Shown: positions 9,360 to 46,254 of the stretch, piece after piece
How positions within the stretch are numbered: the first letter of the stretch is position 1
Layout: each line of letters starts with the position of its first letter
DNA from: Flavobacterium sp.
GTDB lineage: Bacteria > Bacteroidota > Bacteroidia > Flavobacteriales > Flavobacteriaceae
Length of the DNA stretch: 64,000 nucleotides
NCBI GenBank assembly: GCA_014379405.1
Contig: JACMLU010000028.1
Span: forward strand, 78,854-142,853
Direction of reading: 5' to 3'
Position numbers and translations under genes: made by a program
Notes under the pieces: generated by a model
Told to the model about the DNA's origin: nothing
Seen by the model: the letters and a program-made list of their open reading frames with translations, nothing else
Databases searched by the model: none

Positions 9360-9364
9360 TGAAT

Positions 9365-11068: not shown

Positions 11069-11100
11069 AATAATTTTCAATTACGGTGATGTCGTATAAC

Positions 11101-11138: not shown

Positions 11139-11258
11139 TAATACTAATTTTTAATATTAATTGGATTAATAAACCCTTGTCTTCGTTGGCTTAGATTCAA
11201 ATATGATGCCACAAACATTAATAATTGTATAATTAACATTTATTAATTATAATCAATA

Positions 11259-13256: not shown

Positions 13257-13274
13257 AATTGCAATTAAATTAAA

Positions 13275-16631: not shown

Positions 16632-17523
16632 AAGTGTTTTTCAATTAAATTAAAATTAGTTTAGTTAGTTGAATAAAAAAATTGGTTTCAAAACATTGAT
16701 TGAAGTTTACTTCAAAAAAATAAATGTGGAAAATACAATTATCATATTTGAGTCAAATTTATTGGGTCAAATAATCGAAACTATCCTGCACTATGCTGGT
16801 TCAGTCTTTTTATCAAATAAAAGTAGCAAAAAATAAATCATATTAATAAAAAAACGGCTCAAAAATAAAATTAACAAAAAAAAGAGAAGAAATACTAATT
16901 ATAATTAATTTAAAGCTTGCATTTGCAAGTTTTGTTAAAGGAAACACATAAAAATCATAACAGAACAGATAATAAATGATATTTAAGATTCATTTTTAGA
17001 AACGATAAATGCCAAATCCACTTCTTAAAAGCAAATCCTAAAAATTGGTGTTTTATAGTATTATTATATAAAACATCACTGTAAAAAATCATAAATAATA
17101 AACGTAATTATTTAATTTTCAATACTTTAAAAAAAATAAAACAAAAAAATATTTTTATTTTTTTAATTTTAAAAAGGACAAAAATATCTTTTTAATTTGT
17201 AGCTGAAACAACGTATTAACTGATTTATTTAAAAGTGTTAAAATTCACATTCAATGAAGATTTTTTGGCAAAAAAAGTAAATTCCTACAGTTTTGCTTTA
17301 ACGATTAAGCATCGTTTTTAATCTATGATTTAAAGGATGAGCAATTAGTTCTAAAAATTAATATTTCTTCATAACATCAAATGATAACCATATAATATCT
17401 TTTATTAATAAACTTGAAAATGGGTGTTGAATTTTACCTAATGGAATATCTCAGATAAAAACTCGCTATGAAAACCTAAAATAATTAATAGCTCCCTAAT
17501 AATAATAATGGGAAAAAAATGGG

Positions 17524-18516: not shown

Positions 18517-18555
18517 AAATTTTTAAAATGATGGTTAGTGGTTAGTTATTTAAAA

Positions 18556-19464: not shown

Positions 19465-19482
19465 AGAGTTTTTTAAATTGTA

Positions 19483-21504: not shown

Positions 21505-21554
21505 TTTATAATTATATTTTAAATATTTTGCCACAGATTAAAAAGTAAAATTCC

Positions 21555-21612
21555 ACCGCAGATTCGCAGATTATTTTTTAAAAATTCAATAAAAAATCAG
21601 TGAATCTGCGGT
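21555..21612 (-). repeat. Inverted repeat ACCGCAGATTC...GAATCTGCGGT (CAGATT-type repeat)
   Basis: 11-bp perfect arms 21555-21565 and 21602-21612. Confidence 0.8.
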
Positions 21613-21629
21613 AAAAAATTAGACCTGTT

Positions 21630-24086: not shown

Positions 24087-24092
24087 CTTCTT

Positions 24093-26420
24093 TTAATTTA
24101 ATTTGATTTTTTCTACCTCTGATTTACCTAGCAGATTGATTATATCTTTTTTCCTTTCTTCAGGAATTACCTTTAAAACTTTCAATTCACCATTTACGAG
24201 TTCCACTTCAACAGTAGTGTTTTTTGGTGCGTGCAATTTGAAATGCACATTCCAGTCTTTTGGCCAAGCTGGAAAAAGATAAATTTTCCCATCGGCTTCT
24301 TGCAAAAGCATTTCTTGCATTCCAATCATTCCGCTTCCTCCCCAATTATGATCCGGAACCCAATCATATCCTGGGCCCCAAAAGGCAGGAAATCTTCGGT
24401 CTGAATTGGCCATTTTCAACAAATTGTATTTGGCCGCATCGTTGGTCAAACCCAAACGAGCCGCAAAAATATTATCCTGTTTCCAGCCGATATGACTTCT
24501 GAATTTAATCGCATCCGTATCGTATTTAAAAGTATTTAAGGCCGTTTTTAAATCGGGTTTTCCAATTCCATAGATTCCCCATGGAAAAACGGAATACAAT
24601 TGTGGCACTTCAGAATTATTGATTCTTTCCCAAGATTTTGCTGGAACCAATACTTTATGATTATCTACTTGTCCAAAATTCAATGGAGGAATTCGGGTTT
24701 GAAAACCTTTCAAATATTCTAAATCTTCTTTTGACAGTTCTTTTTCCGAAAGAGTTAAAATCTTTTCCGTAATTACTTGCAAAGCGGAAATAGTGCTATT
24801 GGAATTATACGCCATTTTGTAAGTTTCGGCACCCGAACCTGGATATAGAATCAAATGACTATTGCCATCCAAAGGTTTTCTGCCTCTTTGTTTGGCCAAA
24901 TATTGGTAATGTTCATCAAAAAACCGAACACAACTCACGATAAACTGATTGTATTTTTGAATATTTTCATTGGCATATTCTTTCTGTTGCAACATCATTT
25001 GACAAAACTCAAAAACCGTGTCCCATTCATATTCCAACCAAGCATTGTACTCCATTCCTGGATCATAATCGGCTGGTCGTTTCCACTCGTATTCGGCAGG
25101 ATTAGGTAAACCAAAATTTTCCAATTGCTCTGTAAAAGCTGCTCCGCCGTGTTTCCAATAGACTTGCGAACGCAATTCGGCATTTTTTTGCAAACTCAAA
25201 TAATAATCCAATTGCGATTTCATCATATCAAAATCACCGCTTTTCACCATCGGAAAATAAACCAATCGCTGGTTTTGAGCCGTCATTGTTCCGCCTCCCC
25301 AATTTCTGAAATCGGGTGTAAAGTTCAAATCGGGATTAGTAAAAACAGGATCGACTGTAAATAATCCGCCGTTGAATTTAGTTGGATATTTTCCGTGAGC
25401 ATTGCAGCCCAGCATATAGCGAAACAACTGATAATTTTGCCCGATTTGATAAACGGAATCTTTTTCAGTCGAATGCTTTTTTTGTGTATAAATAAAAGAA
25501 CGATTCCAGAAATTATTCCACCATTTTACAGTATTTTTTTCGGCTTGCTTGGCTGTTCTTTTATTTAAAGAAATCAAACTTTTCAAACCGTTATTCCAAG
25601 TATTATAATCAAATTGGCTGGTATTCAGATAAATCTCCAGTGACTGTTTTTTCGAAGATTCTATGCTCGTTACATTAAAACCTTTAAAATCTGTATCTTG
25701 GTATTTACCAAAGTAAGTTCCGTCCGGTTTTAAATTATCACCTTTCATCAATCCGCCGAACGTCAAATCCATAATTGGGTTCATCATTTGATCCTTAACC
25801 GATTCCATTTTTTGCTGCTTTACGGCAACATCAAATACGGTTTCTTCACGGTTTCGGTGGTAAAATTTGATTCCGTTATTTTCAAAAGTGATTGAATCTT
25901 TGTAAGTAACAATATCTCCTTGCGGTGCCCATTTATAGGAATTGGCATTATTGGCTTTCCCTTTGGAATCTCGGTTTTTGTAACGCCAACTTTCGTAGGA
26001 AGCCGTCATTTTCAGTGGATTTTCACTTTCTAAATCCAAATGAATTATCGGCTTGAAAACATCGACCCAAAGTTTGATTTTGGTATCCCTTTGAGCAATC
26101 AAAATATAACCGTCTTTCAAAACCAATTCCTGATGAAAGCCTTCATTATCGACAAAAGGATTAGGCGTTAACGTAACTTTTACACGGCCTAGTTTCAGCA
26201 ACTTATTGTGCTCGTCAAAAGTGCCACTTCTAGAAAAATAAAAATACAAATCGCCTTTTTCTACCCAAACATTCAACCCAACATCTCCACCGCCCATAGG
26301 CATTGATTCTGATGAATTGTTGCTTTGTGTGATCCAAATTTGATTGTAATTCTCAAGCACAGGAATCTGCGCCTTTACTAAAAGCGTAAAAAAAAGAAAT
26401 ATGTAAATTATATGTTTCAT
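24093..26420 (-). CDS. DUF5703-like secreted putative glycoside hydrolase (alpha/alpha-toroid-like)
   Basis: ORF extends to 26450; start placed at MKHIIYIFLFFTLLVKAQ; SESMPMGGGDVGLNVWVEKGDLYFYFSRSGTFDEHNKLLKLGRVKVTL resembles DUF5703/GH95-like N-terminal domains; C-terminal toroid-type helices. Confidence 0.7.
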   Translation of the reverse strand: MKHIIYIFLFFTLLVKAQIPVLENYNQIWITQSNNSSESMPMGGGDVGLNVWVEKGDLYFYFSRSGTFDEHNKLLKLGRVKVTLTPNPFVDNEGFHQELVLKDGYILIAQRDTKIKLWVDVFKPIIHLDLESENPLKMTASYESWRYKNRDSKGKANNANSYKWAPQGDIVTYKDSITFENNGIKFYHRNREETVFDVAVKQQKMESVKDQMMNPIMDLTFGGLMKGDNLKPDGTYFGKYQDTDFKGFNVTSIESSKKQSLEIYLNTSQFDYNTWNNGLKSLISLNKRTAKQAEKNTVKWWNNFWNRSFIYTQKKHSTEKDSVYQIGQNYQLFRYMLGCNAHGKYPTKFNGGLFTVDPVFTNPDLNFTPDFRNWGGGTMTAQNQRLVYFPMVKSGDFDMMKSQLDYYLSLQKNAELRSQVYWKHGGAAFTEQLENFGLPNPAEYEWKRPADYDPGMEYNAWLEYEWDTVFEFCQMMLQQKEYANENIQKYNQFIVSCVRFFDEHYQYLAKQRGRKPLDGNSHLILYPGSGAETYKMAYNSNSTISALQVITEKILTLSEKELSKEDLEYLKGFQTRIPPLNFGQVDNHKVLVPAKSWERINNSEVPQLYSVFPWGIYGIGKPDLKTALNTFKYDTDAIKFRSHIGWKQDNIFAARLGLTNDAAKYNLLKMANSDRRFPAFWGPGYDWVPDHNWGGSGMIGMQEMLLQEADGKIYLFPAWPKDWNVHFKLHAPKNTTVEVELVNGELKVLKVIPEERKKDIINLLGKSEVEKIKLN

Positions 26421-26453
26421 CTCAATGATTTTCCTTGTTTTGATTCTCAACGC

Positions 26454-26486
26454 AGACCTGACAGGTTTTAAAAACCTGTCAGGTCT
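26454..26486. repeat. Palindrome family A, copy 1: AGACCTGACAGGTTTT-A-AAAACCTGTCAGGTCT
   Basis: Perfect 16-bp arms, 1-nt centre. Confidence 0.95.
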
Positions 26487-26495
26487 ATTAAGAAA

Positions 26496-27929
26496 CTACC
26501 ACTCATCCGTACGGAACGACGAAACTGGTAAACCTCCCGTACTGAACAATTCCGCTTTGGCAAAATCCTTGAATAAATATCGAACCGCCGCTGGTTTTGC
26601 AACTTTATCCGAAGTAAGTACGACCGATTTTCGGCGAACTTCGGCTTTGGCAGGATAAAAAACCTTGTCCTCTCCAGCAATTTCAAAACCTGTTACTTCT
26701 TTTCCGTAAGCTGTAATTCCGTTGGGCGCATCGTCAAAAGACACCGTTGCTTTCGCATCCACAATTTCCATACCTTTAAATTTTGGACTCTCAAATTCAA
26801 AGCCTTCTATTCCGTAGGTTTTGGCCAAAGCCAAATATCCCAAGCGATTTCCTCCCTTTTCTTTATCTACTGGATGGATATTATTTTCTTCGCCAATATC
26901 CATCAAAACGACCATTCCTGAATTCGGAATTCCCTTTGAAGCTTTCAATTGTGCTTCTCTCAAATAAGCCGAATTGTATTTTTCTAAATTATCTTTTGGA
27001 TGAAATTGTGCATAATTAAACGGGGCGATTTGAGCATAATAAAAAGGGAAATCGCCTTGTTTCCACAACTCTCTCCAACTGCCGACCATCTTTTTCATCA
27101 AAGCGGTATATTCTGATGCCCGTTCGTAATTTGATTCGCCTTGATACCAGATACAACCTTTGATTCCGTAACCTATAACAGGTGAAAGCATTCCGTTGAA
27201 CAAAGTCGTCGGCACACGGTTTGGGTCTTTTGCCAATTCCTCTTTCGTGGTTGGAATTTTGGCGCTTGCAAAATCTTTCAGCATTTCCTGATTCATCCAA
27301 GCTTCCATACTGGATCCGCCGTAAGAAACGTGAATCAACCCAACCGGAACTTGTAAAACTTCCTGCAAAAGCGAACCGAAGTACCAAGCCGTCGCACTAA
27401 AATTACCAACAGATCTTGGTGAAGCCGTTTCCCATTTTCCTTCAAAATTATCCAAAGGTTCCAAAACAGTAGCACGCGGAATCGTAATCAAACGAATGTT
27501 TTTATTGGTTGATCTAACGATGATTTCGTTGCCATTTTTAACGGGTTGTCCCGGAAAACCTTTCAAAGGCATTTCCATATTCGACTGACCAGAACACAGC
27601 CAAACTTCGCCAATTAATACATTTTTTACGACTACTTTTTCGCTTCCTTCCGAAACTTCAATCGTAAATGGTCCACCAAAAGATGGTGTTTGTAATTCTG
27701 CTTTCCATTTTCCAGAATTGTCTGCTTTCAGCTTGTAGGTTTTAGAATCCCAAGAGGTTTTTATTACAACATTGGCGTTCTTGTCTGCCCAGCCCCACAT
27801 TGGTGCATTTGCCTTTTGCTGTAGCATCATATTGTCCGAAAACAAAGCCGGTAATTTTATTTTGGCATTAATTTGAAAACTTCCTAAAATCAAAAAAATT
27901 GCAATAATATAGTTTCTAAAATGTGTCAT
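26496..27929 (-). CDS. Sialate-O-acetylesterase-like SGNH carbohydrate esterase
   Basis: 477 aa; LPALFSDNMMLQQKANAPMWGWA, GEVWLCSGQSNMEMPL, KGCIWYQGESNYERA, typical of the family. Confidence 0.9.
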   Translation of the reverse strand: MTHFRNYIIAIFLILGSFQINAKIKLPALFSDNMMLQQKANAPMWGWADKNANVVIKTSWDSKTYKLKADNSGKWKAELQTPSFGGPFTIEVSEGSEKVVVKNVLIGEVWLCSGQSNMEMPLKGFPGQPVKNGNEIIVRSTNKNIRLITIPRATVLEPLDNFEGKWETASPRSVGNFSATAWYFGSLLQEVLQVPVGLIHVSYGGSSMEAWMNQEMLKDFASAKIPTTKEELAKDPNRVPTTLFNGMLSPVIGYGIKGCIWYQGESNYERASEYTALMKKMVGSWRELWKQGDFPFYYAQIAPFNYAQFHPKDNLEKYNSAYLREAQLKASKGIPNSGMVVLMDIGEENNIHPVDKEKGGNRLGYLALAKTYGIEGFEFESPKFKGMEIVDAKATVSFDDAPNGITAYGKEVTGFEIAGEDKVFYPAKAEVRRKSVVLTSDKVAKPAAVRYLFKDFAKAELFSTGGLPVSSFRTDEW

Positions 27930-30900
27930 TTCTTTTCTGTTTTTTCTTTTACAATGGTAACTGGCCCCAATAATCCTGCTTTAAGCAATGGCTCTCCTTC
28001 CAATCTAAAAGGAGCCGTTGTCCAGGTTAATCTTTCTTCTTTTGGTAACTTTTGGTCACCAATTAATCGGTTGGCCCAAGTATTCGTGATTTTTATGACT
28101 ATTGTATTTTTTCCTTTTTTCAATGCTTCCGAAATGTCCACTTTATAAGGAAAAGTCCAAAGTGTTCCGCAGTCTTTTCCGTTGATGCTCACCTCAGCAA
28201 TGTTGGCAATGATACCCAAATCCAACCAAATTTTATCATCGGTTTTCCCTTTCCAAACCAATTCTTTTTGATAGGTTGCCGTTCCTGAATAATATTTGAT
28301 ATTGTCGTTCTCCGAAGTGCTCCAATCGAAAAGCTTGTTGATTTTTACGATGTCTTTTGGCCCTTTAAATGCATGGTCGAATTGCAGTTCCCAGTTTTCG
28401 TCCAATGTTTGAACGGTTTCAAATTCAGATTCATTTCCTTTCGCGAAAAGCTCTTTGGTTTCTTCTTTAAAAATCACAAAACCGGATTCATTTGCATCTA
28501 ATATTATTTGGACGATTGTACGCACATTTTCTATTTTCCAATTGGTTAATGCTTTGCTTTTGTCGGTCACAGGATTGTACCAAACGGGAATTTTTCCTGC
28601 TATTCTAAATGATGCTTCAAATTGTCTCTTTTGTTCTTTCTGATTCGAAAGAAAATAAATTTCCTCGTTGTCAGATTTACGATGTGTCCAAGCGATTGTT
28701 TCGGATTCGGCTCTGTTTAAATTTGGAAAATAAACATCCTGTGTAATTCCAATTTCTGCAAAATCGTTTCCTAAATATGGCAATTTAATTATAGTTCCTT
28801 TTCCGATTTTCCAAGTTGATGAATTTGAATTATTCCAAATTTCATCAACCACATTCTTCCATTTTTTTTGATCAGCTTCTGATCGTATTCCGGGTTGTAA
28901 ATTCGGTTTTTCGTCAATAAAAACAGTTGCTCCTTCATTTACCAATTGTAATATTTTTTCGGCTACAGCCAAAGAAATCATTTTATTCGGCGCCATTTTA
29001 TGACTTCCAGGAAACAACAAAGCTCCATACTCGATACTGTTACTCAAGATTACTTTTCCGTTTACGACTTTCGCATTATTCAATAATACATCGGCATTGA
29101 AAGAATCGTATTGATAACCATTCATTGCGTTTATCCATTGTGACAAATCGGTTGAATTTTTAGTCGAGGTCACTTCTTTCGGTATTTTTATGCTTGGCTG
29201 ACCTTCGTTTTTCAATCGAATGGCTTCACTTTCCAGACGCTCTTTTCCAAAAACATTCGGAATGAACGGCACCAATCGATCCGGAAGTACCGAACGCGAC
29301 GGAAAATCTTCGCCAATGAAAACCGCCAAATCGATTACCGGTTTCCCTTTTTGCAATTGAAATTGTACTCTCTGACAATAATCCACCCAAGCTTTTCCGG
29401 GTTTCCACCAGGTTTGATCTCGCTGAAAATAAGACCCAACGCCGTCCAATGTCATTCCGGGTTTTCTGTCCGTCCAAGGATTATGAACAAAAACGTGATA
29501 GAAAAATCGGTTGATTCCGAGGGCATAATTTCTATCGGCCAACGTCTTCAAATTCCCAGGATGTTCGTCCCAATCCATTTTTAACTCCGTAAAAGCTTCC
29601 GCTTGAATAATGTCTTTTCCGTAAATATGCCCTCCTGAAATGGCATCAAGCATATCATTTGGTTTGTCGTGTGTTGGGCTTTTCAGCCAAAATTCGCCAC
29701 TCGGATAATCGATATGTTTAAAATGTAAAAGTCCGTCACTCATCATCGTTGGCGCTACATTTTCGGAACTGAATTTCACTCCTGCTTTTTTGGCTTCATC
29801 TGCCATCGTGCCAAAGAAATTATCGACAATTAATTCCGAAATCGTTTTGCGAACATCATACAATACTTTCTCCGAAGTTTCAATGTCATTTATTGGTATA
29901 CCCGCCATAACCGGCAAATAATCTACAATATTGTAGCCTCTGCGCTTTTTAAATTCTGCATGAAAAACAGGCGACCAGTTTTGACTGCCACATTCCCAGC
30001 TGTCCATATGCAAAATCTTGACCACTTTGGTTGCTAGTTCAGGACCTGCAGTTCGTAGCATTTCGCCAAACCAATGATCCAGTTGAAAACGAACCGCTTC
30101 GGCATTGAATTTATCGACTTCCAATCCTCGTCCTGCGCCTGCAGTGGCATTTTCGTGTCCTGTGGAAGTATGTCCAAAACGGATAATGCGCCAATTCCCT
30201 TTTAAAGGAGCTTTCCAATTTAGAAAGCCTTTTTCGTCAACAAACTTCGAAATGTTAATCATTTTTGATTGATCAACACAATCATTTTTTCCAATTTGTT
30301 CCACAGAAGTTTGCGGACTCAAACGCCAAATGGCTCCTGATTTTCCTTGATAATTGTCAATCAGCGGTTCATTGGACAAATAAATTTTGGCAACTTTCAA
30401 TCCTTGATTCCATTTGGCAGGATCCAAATCTTCCGCGCCGGGTTCTGTTCCTTCGGGATCATAAACAAATCTGAAAAACTTGGCTTTTGTTGGAACGATA
30501 CTGTGGATGTAAAACGCATCAGTGTCTTGCCACCCTTGACGTGGTGTTGTCAATCGACCCAGACTTTTAAAATTTACGCCATCATCACTCACTTCAATTA
30601 GTAAACGATGCGCCTGATAATTATTTCCTTTGGTTTCGATTTGAATGGATTTACACAAAAACGGCTGATCAAATTCGTATTGAATCCAGCCTTTTTCCTT
30701 TAATCGAAACTGATCGCCTTTTTTTGAATCACTCAAAAATGAAGCGTCAAAATCGCCAAGAGTAGAAGTGATTTTTGGACGATTCTGATTGGATGTGATA
30801 TAACTTTCGGTAACGGGAATGGCAAACACAGCGATATCTTTGTAATACTCTTTGTAATGATTTGGAACTGGTAATTGCAGATTTTTAAAGCTATTCCCAT

Positions 30901-31336
30901 TCACCGTAACATCCGCCCAAACCACTTTTTGCATCGACATTTCAGGCGTTATCCAAGGCCCTCCCGCAACAGCAAAACCATCGGCAGGGTGAAAAGCAAT
31001 TTTTACGCCCAATCGGTTGGCTTCGGTCAATGCCCAATGTACCAACTCCCAAAATTCCTTGCTTAACTGCAAAACGGGAGGATCCATCAACGGTGGATTT
31101 GCTGGACCTTTTATGGTCATCAAATAAGCACCTCCAATTCCGGCTTGTTTCATCGCTTCCAAATCGGCTGTGATGCTGGGTTTTGAATAAGCGCTTTGCA
31201 TCCAATACCAATACACCCAAGGTCTTGAGGATTCGATTGTAGGCTGAAACAAGGTGTTTTCTTTTTTAGGAACTTCCTGTGCGGAAACGAATCCCGCAAG
31301 AAGTAAAATAAAAAAGAGGTGTTTTTTTTGAAACAT
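27926..31336 (-). CDS. GH106-like alpha-L-rhamnosidase
   Basis: 1136 aa with signal peptide; SSRPWVYWYWMQSAYSKPSITADLEAMKQAGIGGAYLMTIKG, HMDSWECGSQNWSPVFHAEFKKRRGYNIVDYLPV, FSSENVAPTMMSDG; overlaps the next gene by 4 nt. Confidence 0.88.
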   Translation of the reverse strand: MFQKKHLFFILLLAGFVSAQEVPKKENTLFQPTIESSRPWVYWYWMQSAYSKPSITADLEAMKQAGIGGAYLMTIKGPANPPLMDPPVLQLSKEFWELVHWALTEANRLGVKIAFHPADGFAVAGGPWITPEMSMQKVVWADVTVNGNSFKNLQLPVPNHYKEYYKDIAVFAIPVTESYITSNQNRPKITSTLGDFDASFLSDSKKGDQFRLKEKGWIQYEFDQPFLCKSIQIETKGNNYQAHRLLIEVSDDGVNFKSLGRLTTPRQGWQDTDAFYIHSIVPTKAKFFRFVYDPEGTEPGAEDLDPAKWNQGLKVAKIYLSNEPLIDNYQGKSGAIWRLSPQTSVEQIGKNDCVDQSKMINISKFVDEKGFLNWKAPLKGNWRIIRFGHTSTGHENATAGAGRGLEVDKFNAEAVRFQLDHWFGEMLRTAGPELATKVVKILHMDSWECGSQNWSPVFHAEFKKRRGYNIVDYLPVMAGIPINDIETSEKVLYDVRKTISELIVDNFFGTMADEAKKAGVKFSSENVAPTMMSDGLLHFKHIDYPSGEFWLKSPTHDKPNDMLDAISGGHIYGKDIIQAEAFTELKMDWDEHPGNLKTLADRNYALGINRFFYHVFVHNPWTDRKPGMTLDGVGSYFQRDQTWWKPGKAWVDYCQRVQFQLQKGKPVIDLAVFIGEDFPSRSVLPDRLVPFIPNVFGKERLESEAIRLKNEGQPSIKIPKEVTSTKNSTDLSQWINAMNGYQYDSFNADVLLNNAKVVNGKVILSNSIEYGALLFPGSHKMAPNKMISLAVAEKILQLVNEGATVFIDEKPNLQPGIRSEADQKKWKNVVDEIWNNSNSSTWKIGKGTIIKLPYLGNDFAEIGITQDVYFPNLNRAESETIAWTHRKSDNEEIYFLSNQKEQKRQFEASFRIAGKIPVWYNPVTDKSKALTNWKIENVRTIVQIILDANESGFVIFKEETKELFAKGNESEFETVQTLDENWELQFDHAFKGPKDIVKINKLFDWSTSENDNIKYYSGTATYQKELVWKGKTDDKIWLDLGIIANIAEVSINGKDCGTLWTFPYKVDISEALKKGKNTIVIKITNTWANRLIGDQKLPKEERLTWTTAPFRLEGEPLLKAGLLGPVTIVKEKTEKK

Positions 31337-31355
31337 TATTGTTGTTTTTAATCAT

Positions 31356-31390
31356 TAAACCTGACAGGTTTTAAAAACCTGTCAGGTTTA
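31356..31390. repeat. Palindrome family A, copy 2: TAAACCTGACAGGTTTT-A-AAAACCTGTCAGGTTTA
   Basis: Perfect 17-bp arms, 1-nt centre. Confidence 0.95.
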
Positions 31391-31398
31391 AATTCTAA

Positions 31399-35804
<4,406 letters not shown>

Positions 35805-35882
35805 TTCAAATTTAATTTGCTTCAATGGAACGCAGATGACACGGATCGAACTGATTTTCGCGGATTTCTTTATTTTTTAATC

Positions 35883-35961
35883 TTGCCACAGATTTCACAG
35901 ATTTTCACAGATTTTTTTAAACTAACTTATAATCTGTGTGAATCTGTGAAATCTGTGGCAA
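35883..35961. repeat. Long inverted repeat TTGCCACAGATTTCACAGATTTTCACAGATT / AATCTGTGTGAATCTGTGAAATCTGTGGCAA
   Basis: 31-nt arms 35883-35913 and 35931-35961 with 2 mismatches; each arm contains tandem CACAGATT units. Confidence 0.9.
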
Positions 35962-35978
35962 AAAATCTGTTTCCATTT

Positions 35979-37640
35979 TTATTTCAATTCCTTCAATCTG
36001 GATTCCATTACGTCTTTGTTCAGTTTTACTTTTACCATTCCTGTGGGATGAAATCTTCTTTTCAGATCGATGGCGTTGTACACGATTGTATAAACATCAT
36101 TTCCTTCAGGAATCAAACAAAGCGGTGTTCTCATAATATCCCACCATTTATCGACTTTGGTTTCTATGGGTAAATATCTTGCTTCTCCCCAATTGATTCC
36201 ATCTTTTGAAAGTGAATATCCAATCATATTTGGTAAGTGATGTCCCCAGCCTTCAGGGCCTCCATCAAAAATGGCGATGTACAAACCGTTTGGCAACTGA
36301 CTCACAATCGGATTTTCGACAAATTGCGGATGGATCGTTTTTATTGGTTCCAAACCTTTGTTTAATCGTTTCCATGGGCCTTCCAAACTGTTCGATTCTG
36401 CCAAAGCCACGAACCAACCTTTTCCTGATTTCTTCGGATAATCTGCCCAAGAGGCAAATGGATAAGCTCCGCTGTAAAAACCGAAATATTTATCGCCGAC
36501 TTTGTACGGAAAAAAAGAAGCGACTCCCTGACGTCCTTCCCAAGGCTGTGAATCCAAGCCCGGTTCCATAATGATGCCCATGTCTTTGTACGGACCACCG
36601 ATTCCGTGGATTCCATCGACCGTGGATTCACAACGCCAAATACGACCAAAAGAATGATTGGGTTGAATTTCTTTGTGAACGGTGTATGCCAAATAATAGC
36701 CGTACCATTTGTTTGCTTTTTCGTTAAAAACCGGCATGTACGACCAAATCGCCGAACGACGGTCGTTCATTGGATTGTCATCTTCGGTAACGGCATACAC
36801 TCCGCTGGCCTGGTAAATGGTGGATTCTCTTTTCCAGTGAATGGCATCTTTACTTGTCCAATGTCCGATTTTGGTTTTTACACGGTCGTAATACATTTCA
36901 ATTCCTTTTTCACCTGCTCTTTCCGTTGGAAACATATGATAGGTATCGCCTACTTTTACAACGCGACCGCCTTCAAAACCTCCCTGAATATCTTCGGTTC
37001 CGGGCATTCCTTCACCAATCACGGCTTTATTTTCTCCACCGATGATTTCAAAAAGCGGTTTTTCATCGGAGAATCCTTCAACTATATAAGTTGGATTCCA
37101 AAGTTTTCCGTCTGGAAGTTCAGCATTGCGGGAAACAATTTGAGGATTATTTTTGATTACACCCAAAACTGCAAACAAACCTTTCCCTTCGGGATTGATG
37201 ATGTGTGTTCCTTTTGAAAAAGAAACGGCGTACACATTTACGGGAGACAAACCTGTTATGGTTACACCATTTTCAAGCACCAATTTGGCATTTGGATTAT
37301 AATTTAATTGAAAATATTCCGCATTATCTTTTTCCTGAAAAACTCCTATCAGCACTTGAACCTTCTCTTTGAATTTTAGTTTTAATGGAGCATTCGTTCC
37401 ATTTTTATACGCATTTAATGGTAATTCAACTCCTGTTAATCCTTGCAATTCTGGAGCCAAACCTACAATATTGTGTTTGCTACCCGAAAAAACGTGAGCG
37501 TATTGTGTGGTTTTGAAAGTTTTGTAATTGGATTTTACCACTTCAAAAGAAGCGGGTTGCCAAGATGAGTTTTGAGCTGAAACTTGAAAGCTCAAAAAAA
37601 CCAAGAATAACCAATAAATATGTTTACTTTTTTGAATCAT
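35979..37640 (-). CDS. Secreted beta-propeller glycoside hydrolase-like protein with N-terminal beta-sandwich domain
   Basis: 553 aa; GGFEGGRVVKVGDTYHMFPTERAGEKGIEMYYDRVKTKIGHWTSKDAIHWKRESTIY, WSYMPVFNEKANKWYGYYLAYTV. Confidence 0.7.
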   Translation of the reverse strand: MIQKSKHIYWLFLVFLSFQVSAQNSSWQPASFEVVKSNYKTFKTTQYAHVFSGSKHNIVGLAPELQGLTGVELPLNAYKNGTNAPLKLKFKEKVQVLIGVFQEKDNAEYFQLNYNPNAKLVLENGVTITGLSPVNVYAVSFSKGTHIINPEGKGLFAVLGVIKNNPQIVSRNAELPDGKLWNPTYIVEGFSDEKPLFEIIGGENKAVIGEGMPGTEDIQGGFEGGRVVKVGDTYHMFPTERAGEKGIEMYYDRVKTKIGHWTSKDAIHWKRESTIYQASGVYAVTEDDNPMNDRRSAIWSYMPVFNEKANKWYGYYLAYTVHKEIQPNHSFGRIWRCESTVDGIHGIGGPYKDMGIIMEPGLDSQPWEGRQGVASFFPYKVGDKYFGFYSGAYPFASWADYPKKSGKGWFVALAESNSLEGPWKRLNKGLEPIKTIHPQFVENPIVSQLPNGLYIAIFDGGPEGWGHHLPNMIGYSLSKDGINWGEARYLPIETKVDKWWDIMRTPLCLIPEGNDVYTIVYNAIDLKRRFHPTGMVKVKLNKDVMESRLKELK

Positions 37641-39823
37641 TATTTAACTGCTTTATAACTTACTTTGTATTCCACATTCAGTTTTACGATCAATTGGTAT
37701 TTGTTTTTTGCCAATTCTGTAATCGTTCCTGAACTTGCTTTTGGCTTGCTTGAACTTTCGAAAATCAATTTTCCTTCGCCTTCAGAGGCTTTTACTTTGA
37801 TTTCTTTGGTACTACAATATACGGCAACTTCTCCGTTTGGAGTTGGCACTTTTCCTTCCATCCATTCCAAACCACCAAGATTTGGTTTGATTTCATATTC
37901 GGAATAGCCCGGAGCAGTTGGTTTTACACCTAAATAATATTTTCCCAGCAAATAAATTGGACTAGAACCCCAGGCGTGGCAAAGACTTTTTCCATAAGGA
38001 CGTCCATACATCGCTAAATGTTCTGTTCCTTTTTTCGTTGGATTGTATTCTTCCCAGAAAGAAGTAGCGCCTTCTTTTAACATTCCTCCCCAATAGTCTT
38101 TCATTTCTTTCAAAACATAGTCTTGTTCACCCATCGCACACAAAGCTTCCAACTCATAAAAACGCATGTATGGTGTAGTGATTTGAAGAATTTTATCATT
38201 GAGCAACACCTTCTTTTTGATGCTTTGTTTTTGTTCTTCATCAAAATAATTGAAAAAAATACCGAACATATTGGCGTATCTGGTTACAATATCCTGCATT
38301 TTACCATCTATGCGCTGGTGCTTCATCACGTTTTCCTTTTTGTCCCAAAACACGTCAAACAATTTTGTTTTTAAATCAACAGCTAATTTTTGATACTGTT
38401 TTTGGTCATCCTTTTCACCTGCAATTTCAGCACTAACAGCCATGGCTTCCAAGCTTCTCGCCAAAAGCATTTGCTCAAAACTAACCTCCCCAGTTTTTGG
38501 CAATCCGTTTGCCCAATCAATGAAAACCCAATCGCCTTCCAATGGTTCTAGGAATCCGTTTTTGTTTCTTCTTTCCAAGCAGAATTCCATCAATGATTTC
38601 ATTCGTGGATAAAAAGTTTTGATGAATTTCGTGTCGCCCGTGTGTAAATAGTAATCGTAAACTCCCACAAACCAATACAGCGAATAATCCATTATGATAT
38701 TTACATGAGCCGTCACAGGTTCTTTGCCACGAAGAGCCAACAGCGTTCGTTCCACGGAAGCCGAATCAAAGAATAAATAATAATTCATTAAATAACTTTG
38801 ATAAGCATCGCCAGACCAAACCCACCGGTCGCGTTTGATCCCGTCTATAAAAAATTCGCGGGATGTCAAATGCATCGTGTAAGCCGACACGTCCCAAATT
38901 TTATTCAATTCTTGGTCTGAAGATTTGAATGAACCGCGATGCTCCAATGGCAAGTATTCATAAAGCATCGAAATGGAATCATATTTTACCGATGCATCTG
39001 CTTGTACTTGAACATAGCGGAATGCTTTGGAACCATCATGTGTGTATGTTTGAGGCTGGTTTCCATCAAAAGATAAATGGTCCAGTGTTTCGCATTTGGC
39101 AGTATCCAGAGCTTCCTCGCGAGATTCACCATAATAAAGTGCCACTTTACCTTTTCCTTTTAAGCCGTGAATTTTAATGTAACCAAAAGTTTCTTTACCA
39201 AAATCCACCAACTGACCAGCTCCTATTTTTTCTGTTTTTTTGGCGTTCCAAGGTGTGGTTGTTAGTTTAAACCCGGAAGGTTTACTCTCTGGTGAATCAA
39301 AATTCCAAGAACCAACAGGAACCCAAGGTGTGCCTGATTGTTGTGCTTTTCCCGTTTCATCAATCCAAAGTTTATCTTCGTTGGTCACCTTCCAAGACGC
39401 ATCAGATTTAACATGCTTACCGGCAATGTAAATAGCTGGCAACACTTCCTGATTGTATACTTTAAAGGAAATTTTGTGTTTCCCGGCAGGAATTTTTAAT
39501 GATTTTGGCTGCCCGTAAACTTGAGCACCATCTAAAAGTAATTGAAAAGATCCTTCCGAATAGATTTTTATCTCGTCTGGTTCTGGAATATCCACTTCTG
39601 TTTGAAAAGTTACCAAAGCATAAGGACTGTAATATTGCCAAAGCGGTGGAAATACCGCTTCGCGTTCCGTACGTCTTACTTGCATTTTATTGCTTAACCA
39701 AACTTCGAAATCGCCCGGATACCAAATCCAAGTTTGTGCCGAAGCGGCTTCTGACAACAATAATAATGCACCAACGCAAAGAATCGTTTTTAAACTTTGG
39801 CGTAAAGAAGACAATGTGTTCAT
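37640..39823 (-). CDS. GH78-like alpha-L-rhamnosidase
   Basis: 727 aa with signal peptide; FFIDGIKRDRWVWSGDAYQSYLMNYYLF, GATSFWEEYNPTKKGTEHLAMYGRPYGKSLCHAWGSSPIYLLGKYYLGVKP. Confidence 0.88.
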   Translation of the reverse strand: MNTLSSLRQSLKTILCVGALLLLSEAASAQTWIWYPGDFEVWLSNKMQVRRTEREAVFPPLWQYYSPYALVTFQTEVDIPEPDEIKIYSEGSFQLLLDGAQVYGQPKSLKIPAGKHKISFKVYNQEVLPAIYIAGKHVKSDASWKVTNEDKLWIDETGKAQQSGTPWVPVGSWNFDSPESKPSGFKLTTTPWNAKKTEKIGAGQLVDFGKETFGYIKIHGLKGKGKVALYYGESREEALDTAKCETLDHLSFDGNQPQTYTHDGSKAFRYVQVQADASVKYDSISMLYEYLPLEHRGSFKSSDQELNKIWDVSAYTMHLTSREFFIDGIKRDRWVWSGDAYQSYLMNYYLFFDSASVERTLLALRGKEPVTAHVNIIMDYSLYWFVGVYDYYLHTGDTKFIKTFYPRMKSLMEFCLERRNKNGFLEPLEGDWVFIDWANGLPKTGEVSFEQMLLARSLEAMAVSAEIAGEKDDQKQYQKLAVDLKTKLFDVFWDKKENVMKHQRIDGKMQDIVTRYANMFGIFFNYFDEEQKQSIKKKVLLNDKILQITTPYMRFYELEALCAMGEQDYVLKEMKDYWGGMLKEGATSFWEEYNPTKKGTEHLAMYGRPYGKSLCHAWGSSPIYLLGKYYLGVKPTAPGYSEYEIKPNLGGLEWMEGKVPTPNGEVAVYCSTKEIKVKASEGEGKLIFESSSKPKASSGTITELAKNKYQLIVKLNVEYKVSYKAVK

Positions 39824-39824
39824 A

Positions 39825-41408
39825 TTAATTGAAATTAAAAATGAGGTATAAACTTAAAATGGCTAGTCCCAACAAGGCGAACAATATTTTTACTTTCTTG
39901 CTGGTTTTTGGAACATCGGTTTCGCTCACGAAATTCGTTTCCGGACTTTTATCCACCAATGAAATGACAATCGCCGAAACCATTAAAACTGCAAAAATGT
40001 AAAAGGAAATCAACAAGAAATGTGGCCAAGCCGTGTAAACATCGGCTGGGAAAATCCATAAATACAATACTCCAACAAATAAACTAAAGGCTGAACCCCA
40101 GGATAAAGTAGCATTCACGGCTTTTTTGGTCGTTCTTTTCCAAAAAATACTCAACAAAAACACTACCGACAAAGAGGGTGCCAAAAAGCCCAAAACTGCC
40201 TGAAAGATGTTGAATAAATTTTGTCCTTTTATATTGTCAATCGCAATCGCGATAAGGATTGCAAACACGCATCCTGCCGCAACGGTGATACGTCCCATTT
40301 TTATTTGCTCTTTAATCGTCGCCGCTGGATTGATTTTTTTCACATAAATATCATTGGTGTAAACCGTACTCAAGGCATTCAACGATGATCCAATTGTTGC
40401 TACCAATACAGCAATCATCACGCAAATAACCAAACCATTCATTCCGCTTGGGAATAAATTGGTCACCATAGTCATATAAGCCAAATCCGAATTTTTGCCT
40501 AACTCTGGATACAAAACGGAACACAGAATTCCTGGTAAAATAAACAATGGCAAAGCCAACACTTTTAGCCAACCTATGAAGTTCACTCCCAATTGTCCTT
40601 GCTCTAAATTTTTGGCTCCCAATACGCTTTGCACCATCGATTGGTCTGTACAAAAGAAAGCTACTGCGGCCACGGGATAACCCAATAAAATAGCTGGCCA
40701 AGGATAATTGGGATCGTTTGCCGGCTGAACCAAGTTCCAAAAATTAGAAGGTGTTTTGGCAATTAATGCGCTGATTCCACCCACTTTTTCCAAACCTAAA
40801 TAGGACAATGTAAGCGACACTACAATCAATAAAATCATTTGGAATACGTTCACTTTGGCAATGGCTTTCAAACCTCCTGCGAAAGTAAAAATTCCCGAAA
40901 AAATTACTAATACCGTCACACTTTGCCACATCGGGATTCCTAAAATCTGGCGTACCAAAATTCCTCCGCTGAACAATCCCAACGACAACCAACTCACTAA
41001 AATTTTCACCATTGCATACCAAGCCAAAATGGTTTGAGTACTGTCGCCATAGCGTTTTCCCATATATTCGGGCATCGTGCTGACTTTACTAGCAATATAT
41101 TTTGGAGCAAAAACCATTGCCAAAAGCAATAAGAAAACAAAAGCGTACCATTCGAAATTTCCGGCAACAATTCCCGTCGCATAACCAATACTGGCAAAAG
41201 CCAACAAGGACGAAGGTCCAACATTAGTTCCCCACATATTGAACCCGATATTGTACCAATTCAAGGAATTTCCCGCCATAAAAAGCGTTTCGTTCTTTTT
41301 GCTTTGCTTCACGCTCACCACATAACCAATGACCAATAATATCACCAAATAAATGGCGACAATTATAAAATCTAATGCAGTTAACTTGTCGTAAATGGTA
41401 TTATTCAT
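39825..41408 (-). CDS. Sodium:solute symporter (SSS/SLC5 family)
   Basis: 527 aa, many TM segments; GYVVSVKQSKKNETLFMAGNSLNWYNIGFNMWGTNVGPSSLLAFASIGYATG. Confidence 0.93.
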   Translation of the reverse strand: MNNTIYDKLTALDFIIVAIYLVILLVIGYVVSVKQSKKNETLFMAGNSLNWYNIGFNMWGTNVGPSSLLAFASIGYATGIVAGNFEWYAFVFLLLLAMVFAPKYIASKVSTMPEYMGKRYGDSTQTILAWYAMVKILVSWLSLGLFSGGILVRQILGIPMWQSVTVLVIFSGIFTFAGGLKAIAKVNVFQMILLIVVSLTLSYLGLEKVGGISALIAKTPSNFWNLVQPANDPNYPWPAILLGYPVAAVAFFCTDQSMVQSVLGAKNLEQGQLGVNFIGWLKVLALPLFILPGILCSVLYPELGKNSDLAYMTMVTNLFPSGMNGLVICVMIAVLVATIGSSLNALSTVYTNDIYVKKINPAATIKEQIKMGRITVAAGCVFAILIAIAIDNIKGQNLFNIFQAVLGFLAPSLSVVFLLSIFWKRTTKKAVNATLSWGSAFSLFVGVLYLWIFPADVYTAWPHFLLISFYIFAVLMVSAIVISLVDKSPETNFVSETDVPKTSKKVKILFALLGLAILSLYLIFNFN

Positions 41409-42469
41409 AAGTTATATTCTTTTAAAACATCAGCAATTTTTACTGGCATTCCGATTTGTAAACTTTTATCCATTGCCTGCAATAATGCCACGGTTGCGAT
41501 GCCTTCTTCCATATTTGGATAAGCCACAAAATCCTGCTCGATGCTATCCACGAAATACTCCAAATAATTTTGGTATTCTCCAGCGTGATGGCTTTGCCCT
41601 TCAAAACGGAAATAATGTTTTAAGGTAGCATCGCCCCAAGTTACGGCTTTTTCTTCGCCTGTTTTGTCCGTAATTGCATAACGTAATTCGTGATAATCTG
41701 CTTGACTGGCGCCTTCAGTAGCTCTTAAAATTACGCTCATTCCACTGTCTCTTTGTGTCGGTTGGGTTGGCGAAGTATAAACACCGCTAACACGAGCAAT
41801 TCTTCCGTCAGTAGCCTTAAAAATAAAATGCATCGTGTCTTCGTTTTTCAAACCTGCCACACTTCCGTTGCTGCTGATCATTCCGTACCCCATTACTTCT
41901 TCTATGTTCGGCAAATACCATCTGATGAAATCCACGGGATGACTCAAACCACCATACAACCATTTGAAAGATTGCAATAGCGACCATTCTTTTTCCAAAA
42001 ACCATCTGTGATCGGCGTGATAATGCGATTCAATCGTAATTAAATCTCCTATTAAACCCGCTTCAAAATCGGCTCTTTGTCTTTTTGCCGGTTCGAAAAA
42101 TCTCGAACTTTGACCAATGAACACTTTTTTACCTGTTTTCTCGCTCAGTTCCAATAATGCTTTGGCATCCGAAAGATCATCGATAAAAGGTTTGGTGCAA
42201 ACCACGTGTTTTCCGTGCAACAAAGCTTGTTTTACGTGCTCAGCGTGCAAATGGTCTGGTGTATAAATAGCGATGATATCGATTGCGCTGTCATTCAATA
42301 AATCATCGTAATTTGTTGTGTAAGAATGAAAATCAAATTCCTGTGCTCTTTGTTGGCACAATTCCTCATTCCTGTCGCATATTTTTACCAACTCTAATTT
42401 GCTGCTTTTTAAAGCGGCCGACATTGTACTTCGTCCCTCACCGAGACCTAAAATGGCTATTTTTAACAT
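41405..42469 (-). CDS. Gfo/Idh/MocA-family oxidoreductase
   Basis: 354 aa; N-terminal Rossmann LKIAILGLGEGRSTM, IIAIYTPDHLHAEHVKQALLHGKHVVCTKPFIDDLSDAKAL. Confidence 0.93.
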   Translation of the reverse strand: MLKIAILGLGEGRSTMSAALKSSKLELVKICDRNEELCQQRAQEFDFHSYTTNYDDLLNDSAIDIIAIYTPDHLHAEHVKQALLHGKHVVCTKPFIDDLSDAKALLELSEKTGKKVFIGQSSRFFEPAKRQRADFEAGLIGDLITIESHYHADHRWFLEKEWSLLQSFKWLYGGLSHPVDFIRWYLPNIEEVMGYGMISSNGSVAGLKNEDTMHFIFKATDGRIARVSGVYTSPTQPTQRDSGMSVILRATEGASQADYHELRYAITDKTGEEKAVTWGDATLKHYFRFEGQSHHAGEYQNYLEYFVDSIEQDFVAYPNMEEGIATVALLQAMDKSLQIGMPVKIADVLKEYNL

Positions 42470-42488
42470 CTTTATTTGGTTTTCAAAA

Positions 42489-42521
42489 CAGACCCGACAG
42501 GTTTTGAAAACCTGTCGGGTC
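42489..42521. repeat. Palindrome family A, copy 3: AGACCCGACAGGTTTT-G-AAAACCTGTCGGGTCT
   Basis: Perfect 16-bp arms; a T-to-C change in one arm is matched by A-to-G in the other relative to copies 1 and 2. Confidence 0.95.
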
Positions 42522-42535
42522 TAAACGTGAATAAA

Positions 42536-45049
42536 TTATTTTGTATTTACTTTCTTCAAAAACATCCAGGTTTCTCCCGGTTTTGTTCTTTCGATTCCTG
42601 TTTGGTATTTCTTCATTAAGGCATTCCAATCGTCCACACGTGGATTGTTTTCGGTTGTTTTTGGATTCAGTTTATCCAGGCTCTCTCCTTTTGGAATACT
42701 AATCACCAACATTAATTGTCTTCCGTTTTTGAAAACCTGCAATTGCTGAAAATCGGCATTGCAGAAGCCTTTGGCTATTTCTGGCCACTTTTCGAATTGG
42801 GTGGTGTGATAATCAACATATTCTTTTTGCATTTTGGCATCATCAACTAAATTGGCAGTCAAAATGATATTTTCCCATTCGGATGTTACTTTTACATCTT
42901 TGCATCTTTCGAAATTTTGGAAATCATAAATTGGTTTTTCATAGATTTTGATTTCCAATGCTGGAAAAGCCAAAGCCAGTTTTCTTTTCGTTCTTTCAGG
43001 TTGATTCATCAAACCGTAAATCACCAAATGATTTTCCCATTGGTACAATTCTTCGCCCACAATTCGGAAACCTTTTATGGTTGATTTGATTTTTTCCATA
43101 TCAAAATCCTTCCCGATTAATTCGATGACTACCGATTTTGGCATTTCCTGCAATCCCCAGGCTTCGTCAATGACAACTTCTTTCGTTAATACATTGCTGT
43201 ATGGTTCGCGAATACCTGCGTTTTTCTTGATTTCAGGATTCACGAAAGGATAATTGTCCTGCCAAACATTTCCCGAAGGGCCATTGTGGTTTTTCAATGT
43301 TTTTTGAATCGGAATCCAGTTGTTTTTGATGGTAAAACCCTGCGTTCCTTCGTCGGTGTACAAATACAACCACAAAAACGGATCGTGCGTAAATGGACTA
43401 TTGTAAACCTTGTCAATATAATTCTCTTCTATTCTGCTGTCAGGTTGGGAAGAAAGTGTATAAATTCCGGCTACATCGTGTAAATGTTTGGCATAATGAT
43501 GGATTTTGTTAGCTAGAATTTTGTTGTTGCGCATCACGTTTTCGGTAGATGTCCAACCCCAACCCATTGAAATTCCGCTGTAGGCTACATCCGAAATTTC
43601 ATTGTGCTCGATAGTCAAATTCTTTATGAAACCAGCTGCGATTCCTAAACATCCCCAATCTTCGTTGGCGACATTGGTAATCAAATTATCCGCAATTAAT
43701 TCATCCGAACAAATTTCTCTTTCATCTTTTACTTGTAATGGCAAATGGGCTTCAAAAGCTTCGTCAGAGAAAACACCTAAATTAATTCCGTTGCCGCCAA
43801 TGTCTTTGAATAAATTTCCTTTAACAATATTATGATTCGTTCCTCTATGAAAATCCAATCCCGTGGAAGACAAATGCTCAAAACTGCAACTTTCGAATAG
43901 TGTATTGTTGGCATAATTTACCTCAACGGCGGCTCTTGGTCTTCCAACCCAACCTTGATTTTCTAAATTCGCTTGATTTGGAGTTCCTGGCGTTTTCAAT
44001 TTATAGGCATCCAATAAATACATTCCTGCCTGCAACGGAACGTGACCTTGCTGCGAAGGACGAAGCCAATTACTGTACTGAAACGAAATTCCCTTGAAAT
44101 TAAAATGATGTACGGGCGAATCTAAAGTTCCTTTAACTTCGACTAAATTTTCCAAAACAGGAATCGTTACTTTTGCGGAACTCATATTCTCGCCTGCTCT
44201 TGGAATATAATAAACCTTGGCTTTTTTTCTGTCCAAATACCATTCTCCCGCTTCGTTCAACATTGAAAATCCGTTGTTTAAATAGAATGCCGAGTTTCCG
44301 TTGTTTTTTGAAATCCAAGGCGCAGGCCAAGGATGTTCGCTTTGGATGCGGCTTTCCGGCTGTTCGAATGAAAGTCTGGCACTGTCTTTTTTTACTTCTA
44401 TGTTTTTGATACGCAGATTGGCAATCGCCCACCATTGGACAATAAACATTTCCATTCCGGGTTCAAACTTGACGGATTTGTCTTTGAAAGGAATCCAGCA
44501 ATTCTCGGTTGCCGCATCCCAAGACAAAATACGATCCATTTTGTTTCCAGTCGTGCTTTTGGCTCTAACGGCTTTTTTTTCGTTGACCCACAATTGTCGG
44601 TAATTGATGATTTCACCTGCTTTTGCTGGAGCGTCGGCTTCCCAAACCGTTCCTGCTTTTAATCCATTTATAGAAACAGTCGATTTTTTCCAGTTTTTGA
44701 TTTCAAATCCACCGCTTAGGATTGGTTTTGCGTTTGCATCGGCTTCAATTGTAGTTGGACTTTCGGCCGTTCCTGAATCTTCGGGTCTTATGAATAAGGG
44801 TTCGTTTAAATAATACGTTCCGTTCATTACTACAATATGGATTCCGTCTTTGATGGAAGCATCTTTCAGGCGACGTAATTCTCTGGCTTTTCTGACTGCA
44901 ATTTGAACGGTTGCCAACGGACTTGATTTTGTACCTATGTTGGTATCATTTCCTTGAACAGAAACCCAAATTTCAGCAGCATTTGCCGAAAACAGCATTC
45001 CTATTAGAAGAAAAACCAAAAATAGTTTACGTTGTTGCTTTAAATTCAT
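42536..45049 (-). CDS. Secreted right-handed beta-helix protein with C-terminal L-rhamnose-mutarotase-like (RhaM) domain
   Basis: 837 aa with signal peptide; beta-helix repeats (IVKGNLFKDIGGNGINLGVF, IEHNEISDVAYSGISMGWGW); last ~117 aa (42536-42889) VDYHTTQFEKWPEIAKGF...LMLVISIPKG...LDKLNPKTTENNPRVDDWNALMKKYQTGI...GETWMFLKKV resemble RhaM. Confidence 0.82.
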   Translation of the reverse strand: MNLKQQRKLFLVFLLIGMLFSANAAEIWVSVQGNDTNIGTKSSPLATVQIAVRKARELRRLKDASIKDGIHIVVMNGTYYLNEPLFIRPEDSGTAESPTTIEADANAKPILSGGFEIKNWKKSTVSINGLKAGTVWEADAPAKAGEIINYRQLWVNEKKAVRAKSTTGNKMDRILSWDAATENCWIPFKDKSVKFEPGMEMFIVQWWAIANLRIKNIEVKKDSARLSFEQPESRIQSEHPWPAPWISKNNGNSAFYLNNGFSMLNEAGEWYLDRKKAKVYYIPRAGENMSSAKVTIPVLENLVEVKGTLDSPVHHFNFKGISFQYSNWLRPSQQGHVPLQAGMYLLDAYKLKTPGTPNQANLENQGWVGRPRAAVEVNYANNTLFESCSFEHLSSTGLDFHRGTNHNIVKGNLFKDIGGNGINLGVFSDEAFEAHLPLQVKDEREICSDELIADNLITNVANEDWGCLGIAAGFIKNLTIEHNEISDVAYSGISMGWGWTSTENVMRNNKILANKIHHYAKHLHDVAGIYTLSSQPDSRIEENYIDKVYNSPFTHDPFLWLYLYTDEGTQGFTIKNNWIPIQKTLKNHNGPSGNVWQDNYPFVNPEIKKNAGIREPYSNVLTKEVVIDEAWGLQEMPKSVVIELIGKDFDMEKIKSTIKGFRIVGEELYQWENHLVIYGLMNQPERTKRKLALAFPALEIKIYEKPIYDFQNFERCKDVKVTSEWENIILTANLVDDAKMQKEYVDYHTTQFEKWPEIAKGFCNADFQQLQVFKNGRQLMLVISIPKGESLDKLNPKTTENNPRVDDWNALMKKYQTGIERTKPGETWMFLKKVNTK

Positions 45050-45306: not shown

Positions 45307-46254
45307 ATGGACAGTATAAATTCTAATGGCGTATCAAAAAGCAATACTGGAAATTCAGGTGTTTGGTGGCACGAAAATAATCCTGGTCCATTGGCCAACC
45401 TCCCTTTCATCAAGCAATTTGGAAGTATGCGTTTTACCAAAGTGCAAATGGACGAAAATATGCGACCCCATTTAAATGACGGCATTGAAATTCATTTCGT
45501 GACCAGCGGAAAGTACGATTGGGTTGTCGAAGGAAACCAAATTGAATTATTACCCGGCAATTTATCGGTTACAGCGCCTTGGCATTGGAACGGAAGTCCA
45601 AATGGCAAAATGGACATTGGATACATTGATTGGATTATACTAAAACCGCAAGAATACGGTCAAAAAAAGAAATTAAATCTAGGTAACTGGACCAAATTAT
45701 CAAAAAGCATTCAAGAAAACCTAGGTAATTTGATTGCCGACAACAGCAATGTAGTCTTGGAAAAAGCTAAAACTTTTGAAAAATATTTTATAGAAATTAG
45801 AAAAGAATTAGCCAATCAAGAGGAAGGTTATGAAATAATGGTTGGAAACATTTTAGAAAACCTATTAATAGATTTATACCGGCAACTTTCGGGCAAAGGT
45901 CTAAAAACGGTAGAGGAAACCAATTTTATCGATAAATTTACCAAAATCATTTCAGAAGATATCAGTAAAAAGTGGAACATTGACGACTTGGCACATCGCT
46001 TTGGAATGGGGAAAACAAAATTCACCTATGAAGTAAAAAGACTTACTGGATACCCGCCCAATAGCTACATCATTAATCTAAAAATAGAAAAAGCCATTGC
46101 ACTAATTTTAAATCCTAAAAACAAGTCGATGTCGGACATTGCCTATTCTTGTGGGTTTTCATCGATACAACATTTTACTTCCTCCTTTTTGCAAAGAACA
46201 GGAACTACACCTGGGAAATTTAGAACAAATGAAACCAAGGATAAAAATAAATAA
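45307..46254 (+). CDS. AraC-family transcriptional regulator
   Basis: 315 aa; N-terminal cupin-like sensor domain; C-terminal HTH WNIDDLAHRFGMGKTKFTYEVKRLTGYPPNSYIINLKIEKAIALILNPKNKSMSDIAYSCGFSSIQHFTSSFLQRTGTTPGKFR. Confidence 0.96.
   Translation: MDSINSNGVSKSNTGNSGVWWHENNPGPLANLPFIKQFGSMRFTKVQMDENMRPHLNDGIEIHFVTSGKYDWVVEGNQIELLPGNLSVTAPWHWNGSPNGKMDIGYIDWIILKPQEYGQKKKLNLGNWTKLSKSIQENLGNLIADNSNVVLEKAKTFEKYFIEIRKELANQEEGYEIMVGNILENLLIDLYRQLSGKGLKTVEETNFIDKFTKIISEDISKKWNIDDLAHRFGMGKTKFTYEVKRLTGYPPNSYIINLKIEKAIALILNPKNKSMSDIAYSCGFSSIQHFTSSFLQRTGTTPGKFRTNETKDKNK

Follow-up and report, generated by a model that had tools for sequence, protein, structure and literature searches.

A RhaM-family domain joined to a GH141 hydrolase in Flavobacterium: a candidate periplasmic fucosidase and fucose mutarotase

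Introduction

Mutarotases are usually seen as small cytosolic helper enzymes. What, then, is a domain of the RhaM mutarotase family doing at the end of a predicted exported polysaccharide hydrolase, and on which sugar, if any, would it act? The question is raised by a gene in a stretch of Flavobacterium sp. DNA (64,000 nucleotides of contig JACMLU010000028.1, positions 78,854 to 142,853; hereafter the window), whose product a sequence-only reading had described as a beta-helix enzyme of the polysaccharide-lyase or GH28 kind carrying a rhamnose mutarotase-like domain, in a locus with GH78 and GH106 rhamnosidases.

Results

A GH141 enzyme with an added C-terminus

The N-terminus of the protein (MNLKQQRKLFLVFLLIGMLFSANA-AEIW) resembles a Sec signal peptide by eye, and Pfam places a GH141 insertion domain and a Beta_helix upstream of a PF05336 (rhaM) match at aa 738-834 (E 1.7e-10, 41.4 bits, cut-off 23.4), so that the description of an exported beta-helix enzyme joined to a RhaM-family domain is borne out. 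The protein is probably periplasmic. Chance, a frameshift and a chimeric assembly join are ruled out, since the same uninterrupted fusion recurs in 20 distinct homologues, spread over three families, as well as in 80/80 Flavobacterium loci. Between the two named parts, aa 623-716 received no name in the Pfam search; the protein had no match in PHROGs, and the C-terminal region had no direct match among PDB sequences with either a single-sequence or a profile query.

The identity first given to the beta-helix does not hold. The domain aligns at full length with BT_1002 of Bacteroides thetaiotaomicron (PDB 5MQP; phmmer E 1.4e-196) and matches GH141_M (E 8e-63, 211 bits), and the Pfam GH141 assignment and the 5MQP alignment rule out a polysaccharide lyase or GH28 enzyme. 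In BT1002, D523 and D564 are critical for activity (PMC10154630); both are kept, as D525 and D566, with Asp in 81/81 sequences. By alignment, the domain is thus a GH141 enzyme orthologous to BT1002, the RG-II alpha-L-fucosidase that frees the disaccharide 2-O-methyl-D-xylosyl-alpha-1,3-L-fucose (PMC10154630). The GH141 family also includes a xylanase and endo-fucanases; we infer alpha-L-fucosidase activity on RG-II from BT1002 orthology and locus content. BT1002 (624 aa) stops after the beta-helix and functions without a RhaM-family domain, whereas the Flavobacterium protein adds ~220 residues that form two ferredoxin-like domains. A tree of GH141 sequences puts the fused proteins in one clade (96/100) beside BT1002-type enzymes that lack the fusion, a pattern suggesting that the fusion arose once.

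The surrounding locus

The features of the gene and its surroundings are collected in Table 1. Besides the GH141 enzyme, the locus encodes a GH140-type apiosidase (3KZS/5MSY, E 2e-133), a GH106 enzyme (5MQM, E 0) and a GH137-like protein; several of the matched PDB entries are B. thetaiotaomicron RG-II enzymes, and these together with GH141 point to RG-II. A GH78-like gene and the GH106 gene do lie in the same gene run, as had been read. The fusion gene is the locus member nearest the AraC-family gene, which adjoins the fusion in another locus (L116) too, and it is followed by a Gfo/Idh gene and an SSF gene that overlap by 4 bp, unlike the gene for BT1002. Among solved structures the nearest relative of the Gfo/Idh protein is DgpA1, a member of a group (DgpA) that oxidises sugars at C3; the SSF protein most resembles SGLT1 (E 1e-59) and vSGLT (E 2e-50).

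Table 1. Features of the fusion gene and its locus, in window positions
Feature	Position	Strand	Basis or size
RG-II-type polysaccharide utilisation locus (GH28, GH140, SusC/D, pectinesterase, GH127, GH106, GH2, GH137, GH78-like, GH141)	577..45049	minus	
GH78-like putative alpha-L-rhamnosidase	37640..39823	minus	3CIH, E 6e-284
SSF symporter, SGLT/vSGLT-like	39825..41408	minus	PF00474
Gfo/Idh/MocA oxidoreductase, no signal peptide	41405..42469	minus	
GH141-RhaM-family fusion gene	42536..45049	minus	837 aa
Signal peptide, aa 1-24 (ANA/AEIW)	44978..45049	minus	by-eye reading; similar hydrophobic N-terminus in homologues
GH141 beta-helix catalytic domain, aa 25-612	43214..44977	minus	phmmer to 5MQP; GH141_M
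Asp525 (BT1002 D523), putative nucleophile	43475..43477	minus	alignment; D in 81/81
Asp566 (BT1002 D564), putative acid/base	43352..43354	minus	alignment; D in 81/81
Degenerate ferredoxin-like domain, aa 623-716, possible RhaM-like partner half	42902..43183	minus	AF2 and weak profile similarity
RhaM-family (fucose-type) mutarotase domain, aa 726-834	42548..42874	minus	PF05336; profile comparisons
Y744-x3-H748, family-invariant pair	42806..42820	minus	alignment
Trp808, family-invariant	42626..42628	minus	alignment
Trp828, common to fucose-type and FucM; gap in rhamnose-type	42566..42568	minus	alignment
AraC-family regulator, divergent	45307..46254	plus	

The locus also holds candidate uncharacterised RG-II enzymes, namely large DUF6298 (3609-6794) and DUF5703 (24093-26450) proteins; a DUF5703 and SASA pair is likewise found near an unfused GH141 gene (L112). 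At 35979-37640 lies a 553-aa protein that has no Pfam match and partially matches the C-terminal part of the alpha-D-galacturonidase model NF049878 (positions 727-889).

Spread, selection and linked genes

How widespread is the fusion? When an evenly drawn sample of 396 Bacteroidota genomes was searched for PF05336 frames, 15 carried PF05336 in a frame of more than 800 aa, and all 15 frames were full-length matches to the window protein; these span three families, with 79-88% identity within its own genus and 49-56% in the two others. Apart from those 15, no PF05336 frame in the sample exceeded 322 aa. Two PF05336-bearing open frames, 322 and 272 aa long (G385:C4:78479-78787 and G257:C118:4954-5274), may represent further fusions or long frames that run from stop to stop. 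From a scan across 85,000 species genomes the best 80 loci were kept; their names are all Flavobacterium, Flavobacteriaceae/-ales or [Flexibacter]. The fused frame was intact in every one, so that the fusion extends across the best Flavobacterium loci and into two other families of its class. Median pairwise dN/dS was 0.063 in the RhaM-family domain, 0.073 in the GH141 domain and 0.077 in the domain between them; by this measure the RhaM-family domain and the fusion are under purifying selection, and the low ratios together with residue conservation rule out a decaying remnant.

The neighbouring genes travel with the fusion. At a threshold of E 1e-60, a Gfo/Idh match was found in 16 of the 396 genomes, 15 of them with the fusion (at least 597 bits) and one a distant match (256 bits); an orthologue is thus present in exactly the 15 fusion-bearing genomes. 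The order GH141-RhaM, Gfo/Idh, SSF held in 7/7 fused loci inspected, while at three unfused GH141 loci neither Gfo/Idh nor SSF adjoined and a GH78-like gene lay directly next. Among the best 80 Flavobacterium loci, Gfo/Idh came next in 77 and SSF then in 76 of those (the other being near a contig end), counts that are not counts of independent events since these genomes share ancestry. Two of the remaining loci were cut off and one (L122, 6704-10874) is a real exception, in which three genes replace Gfo/Idh between GH141-RhaM and SSF: one for a GH31 alpha-xylosidase-like protein that lacks a signal peptide, one for a PhyH-type dioxygenase, possibly an O-demethylase, and one for a 289-aa protein without Pfam match. 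This set would fit cytosolic cleavage and demethylation of imported 2-O-methyl-xylosyl-fucose. Additionally, L-fucose dehydrogenase (NF052481, above cut-off) and/or lactonase-like genes lie within ~4 kb in ~35/87 fused loci; in the window's genome the two stand side by side on another contig.

A possible single-chain pseudo-dimer with conserved active-site residues

Besides the fusion, the window's genome carries PF05336 in two stand-alone genes, one (L024) between GH29 and GH95 fucosidases and the other (L025) sharing its locus with a GH106 rhamnosidase gene. Used as seeds, these paralogues sorted the PF05336 genes of the phylum into a fucose type, a rhamnose type and a few intermediates; L026, L027 and L039, which score near-equally with both seeds, may be a third subfamily.

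What do the added ~220 residues look like? An AlphaFold2 model from a single sequence was poor (pLDDT 47) and was superseded by one from 69 sequences (mean pLDDT 78.9, pTM 0.75), which has two ferredoxin-like domains in tandem in one chain, though confidence is low (~53-57) in places near the active site. In this model aa 623-716 is folded beta-alpha-beta-beta-alpha-beta (core pLDDT ~84-95), and the same segment has weak similarity to the fucose-type RhaM profile (P 2e-4, probability 47%). In Foldseek the top matches are proteins of the antibiotic-monooxygenase/heme-degrading kind, aligned over ~200 columns, that is, both domains of one chain; among single-domain PF05336 mutarotases, the L-fucose mutarotase 7byu has a higher target TM (0.71) than RhaU (0.61), with E-values near 0.01. 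Known PF05336 mutarotases are dimers. With a degenerate ferredoxin-like domain preceding the RhaM-family domain, the C-terminal part resembles a pseudo-dimer within one chain, and the model makes it plausible that aa 623-716 is a duplicated, degenerate RhaM-like half.

The Tyr, His and Trp expected of a mutarotase are in place. Y744-x3-H748 is found in 20/20 fused, 28/28 fucose-type and 10/10 rhamnose-type sequences, in 4/4 solved structures and in 81/81 Flavobacterium sequences; Trp755 and Trp808 are, like Tyr744 and His748, invariant or nearly so across the family, and alignment of the 81 Flavobacterium sequences finds Y744, H748 and W808 kept in all.

Might the fold nevertheless have been repurposed as a non-catalytic module for sugar binding or assembly, holding the released saccharide or fixing the quaternary structure of the hydrolase? 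Such a module would suit a domain that is highly divergent from all mutarotases, that has lost an Arg present in 28/28 fucose-type sequences (here Gln778) and that follows a clearly degenerate domain, and unfused GH141 enzymes manage without it; however, the Tyr/His/Trp set is invariant in 20 diverse and 81 Flavobacterium sequences, dN/dS is no higher than in the hydrolase domain, and the co-occurring transporter and cytosolic oxidoreductase suggest product metabolism. The strongly conserved active-site residues are evidence against a binding-only role, short of excluding it, and we judge that role unlikely; from the alignments, the domain is probably catalytic.

Fucose or rhamnose?

Around fucose-type genes in other genomes lie GH29, SDR, FAA hydrolase, amidohydrolase and MFS genes, and around rhamnose-type genes lie GH88, GH106, RGL11, RhaT and RhaA. 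The former neighbours fit the non-phosphorylating L-fucose route (PMC11199699). The fused domain scores 53-72 bits with the fucose-type RhaM profile versus at most 18 with the rhamnose-type, and in profile-profile comparison P is 1e-18 over 107 columns versus 0.004. FucM (PDB 7BYU/7BYW), the L-fucose mutarotase of the non-phosphorylating pathway, has in common with it the PF05336 fold, the Tyr/His/Trp set and the equivalents of Gln816 and Trp828, residues (seen in 7byw) that fucose-type sequences have and rhamnose-type sequences do not; unlike the fused domain, FucM is a separate small protein. RhaM/RhaU (1X8D, 2QLW/2QLX, 6HHN) likewise has the PF05336 family and the Tyr/His/Trp set in common, but its WW pair (here W808-N809) and NPDNSP motif are absent from the fused domain in the alignment, and the profile similarity is weak.

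The tree calls for caution. It places the fused clade with the fucose type at only 85/78 support and on a long branch (length ~4), and FucM, on a very long branch, falls with the rhamnose type; the label 'fucose-type' therefore rests on gene neighbourhood and not on FucM homology, and the placement of FucM failed as proof of fucose specificity. With mean identity of only 25% to fucose-type sequences and ~15% to FucM over the domain, specificity is a matter of profile, motif and gene neighbourhood. By these criteria we hold, with good confidence, that the substrate is fucose rather than rhamnose.

The choice of rhamnose as the sugar is accordingly probably wrong, given that the domain groups with a Bacteroidota subfamily beside fucosidases and L-fucose catabolic genes and that its host enzyme is orthologous to an RG-II alpha-L-fucosidase. 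A true rhamnose mutarotase, equilibrating the L-rhamnose that the GH78-like and GH106 enzymes release, would agree with the name of the family and with the two rhamnosidase genes in the same gene run, but the far lower rhamnose-type similarity, the missing motifs beside a fucose-type Trp828, the join to a fucosidase, the fucose genes near many loci and the GH78-like gene that adjoins GH141 even where the RhaM-family domain is absent make it distinctly improbable. A mutarotase for another reducing-end sugar of RG-II (e.g. 2-O-methyl-xylose), with the hydrolase as mere carrier, is very improbable: RG-II has 13 different sugars (PMC12282258) and a divergent pocket could mean a new substrate, but for a domain that is joined to a fucose-releasing hydrolase and lies near the fucose-type branch, fucose is the more economical assumption.

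Discussion

Why would a putative fucose mutarotase be attached to a probable fucosidase? On balance, we lean toward a periplasmic bifunctional alpha-L-fucosidase/fucose mutarotase that would feed a symporter, and coupled release and mutarotation outside the cytosol is the best reading of these sequences. The GH141 domain would cut the alpha-L-fucosyl unit from chain A of RG-II and, whether inverting or retaining, should yield a single anomer first; the RhaM-family domain, a degenerate and a catalytic half in one chain, would then interconvert the anomers of the freshly released reducing-end fucose, providing the anomer that is accepted by the SGLT-type Na+ symporter, whose gene lies two places downstream. 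A mutarotase carried on the hydrolase would remove the equilibration delay before transport; for methyl-fucose released by GH139, the unaided anomeric equilibrium is complete only by 3 h (PMC12282258). After import, the cytosolic steps would fall to the Gfo/Idh enzyme encoded beside the fusion and to the pathway of L-fucose dehydrogenase. The sequences themselves show how the domains are arranged, which residues are conserved, that selection is purifying, that the fusion falls in one clade and that it is linked to the symporter and Gfo/Idh genes; the periplasmic site, and the transporter as the reason for the fusion, are what we infer.

Is the sugar at the reducing end free or substituted? That the substrate is a disaccharide rather than free fucose we regard as evenly balanced, and that the divergent pocket reflects a 3-O-substituted fucose is speculation. 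A complete release-and-flip route, in which 2-O-methyl-D-xylosyl-alpha-1,3-L-fucose would be freed in the periplasm, mutarotated at its reducing end by the pseudo-dimer, imported intact by the SGLT-type symporter and cleaved inside by Gfo/Idh or (in one strain) the GH31 alpha-xylosidase-like enzyme, is tentative and somewhat doubtful.

An analogous logic, an exported mutarotase beside a sugar transporter, is found in sialic acid scavenging, where periplasmic NanM turns the alpha form into the beta form carried by SiaPQM (PMC4646407). NanM differs from the putative periplasmic fucosidase/mutarotase in being a separate protein, with no hydrolase fusion, and in its sugar. Its family is, to our knowledge, unrelated to the PF05336 mutarotases. 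No description of the fusion, its conservation or its link to the symporter and oxidoreductase was found in the literature searchable without subscription; the parts are known, but their combination, its conservation and the tight link are undescribed in the papers covered.

If the reading is true, a hydrolase with its own exported mutarotase would mean that, in polysaccharide use, selection acts on the choice of anomer at the inner membrane. The fusion would also mark a route for RG-II chain A fragments different from that of Bacteroides, and it assigns testable roles to the SSF transporter and the Gfo/Idh enzyme.
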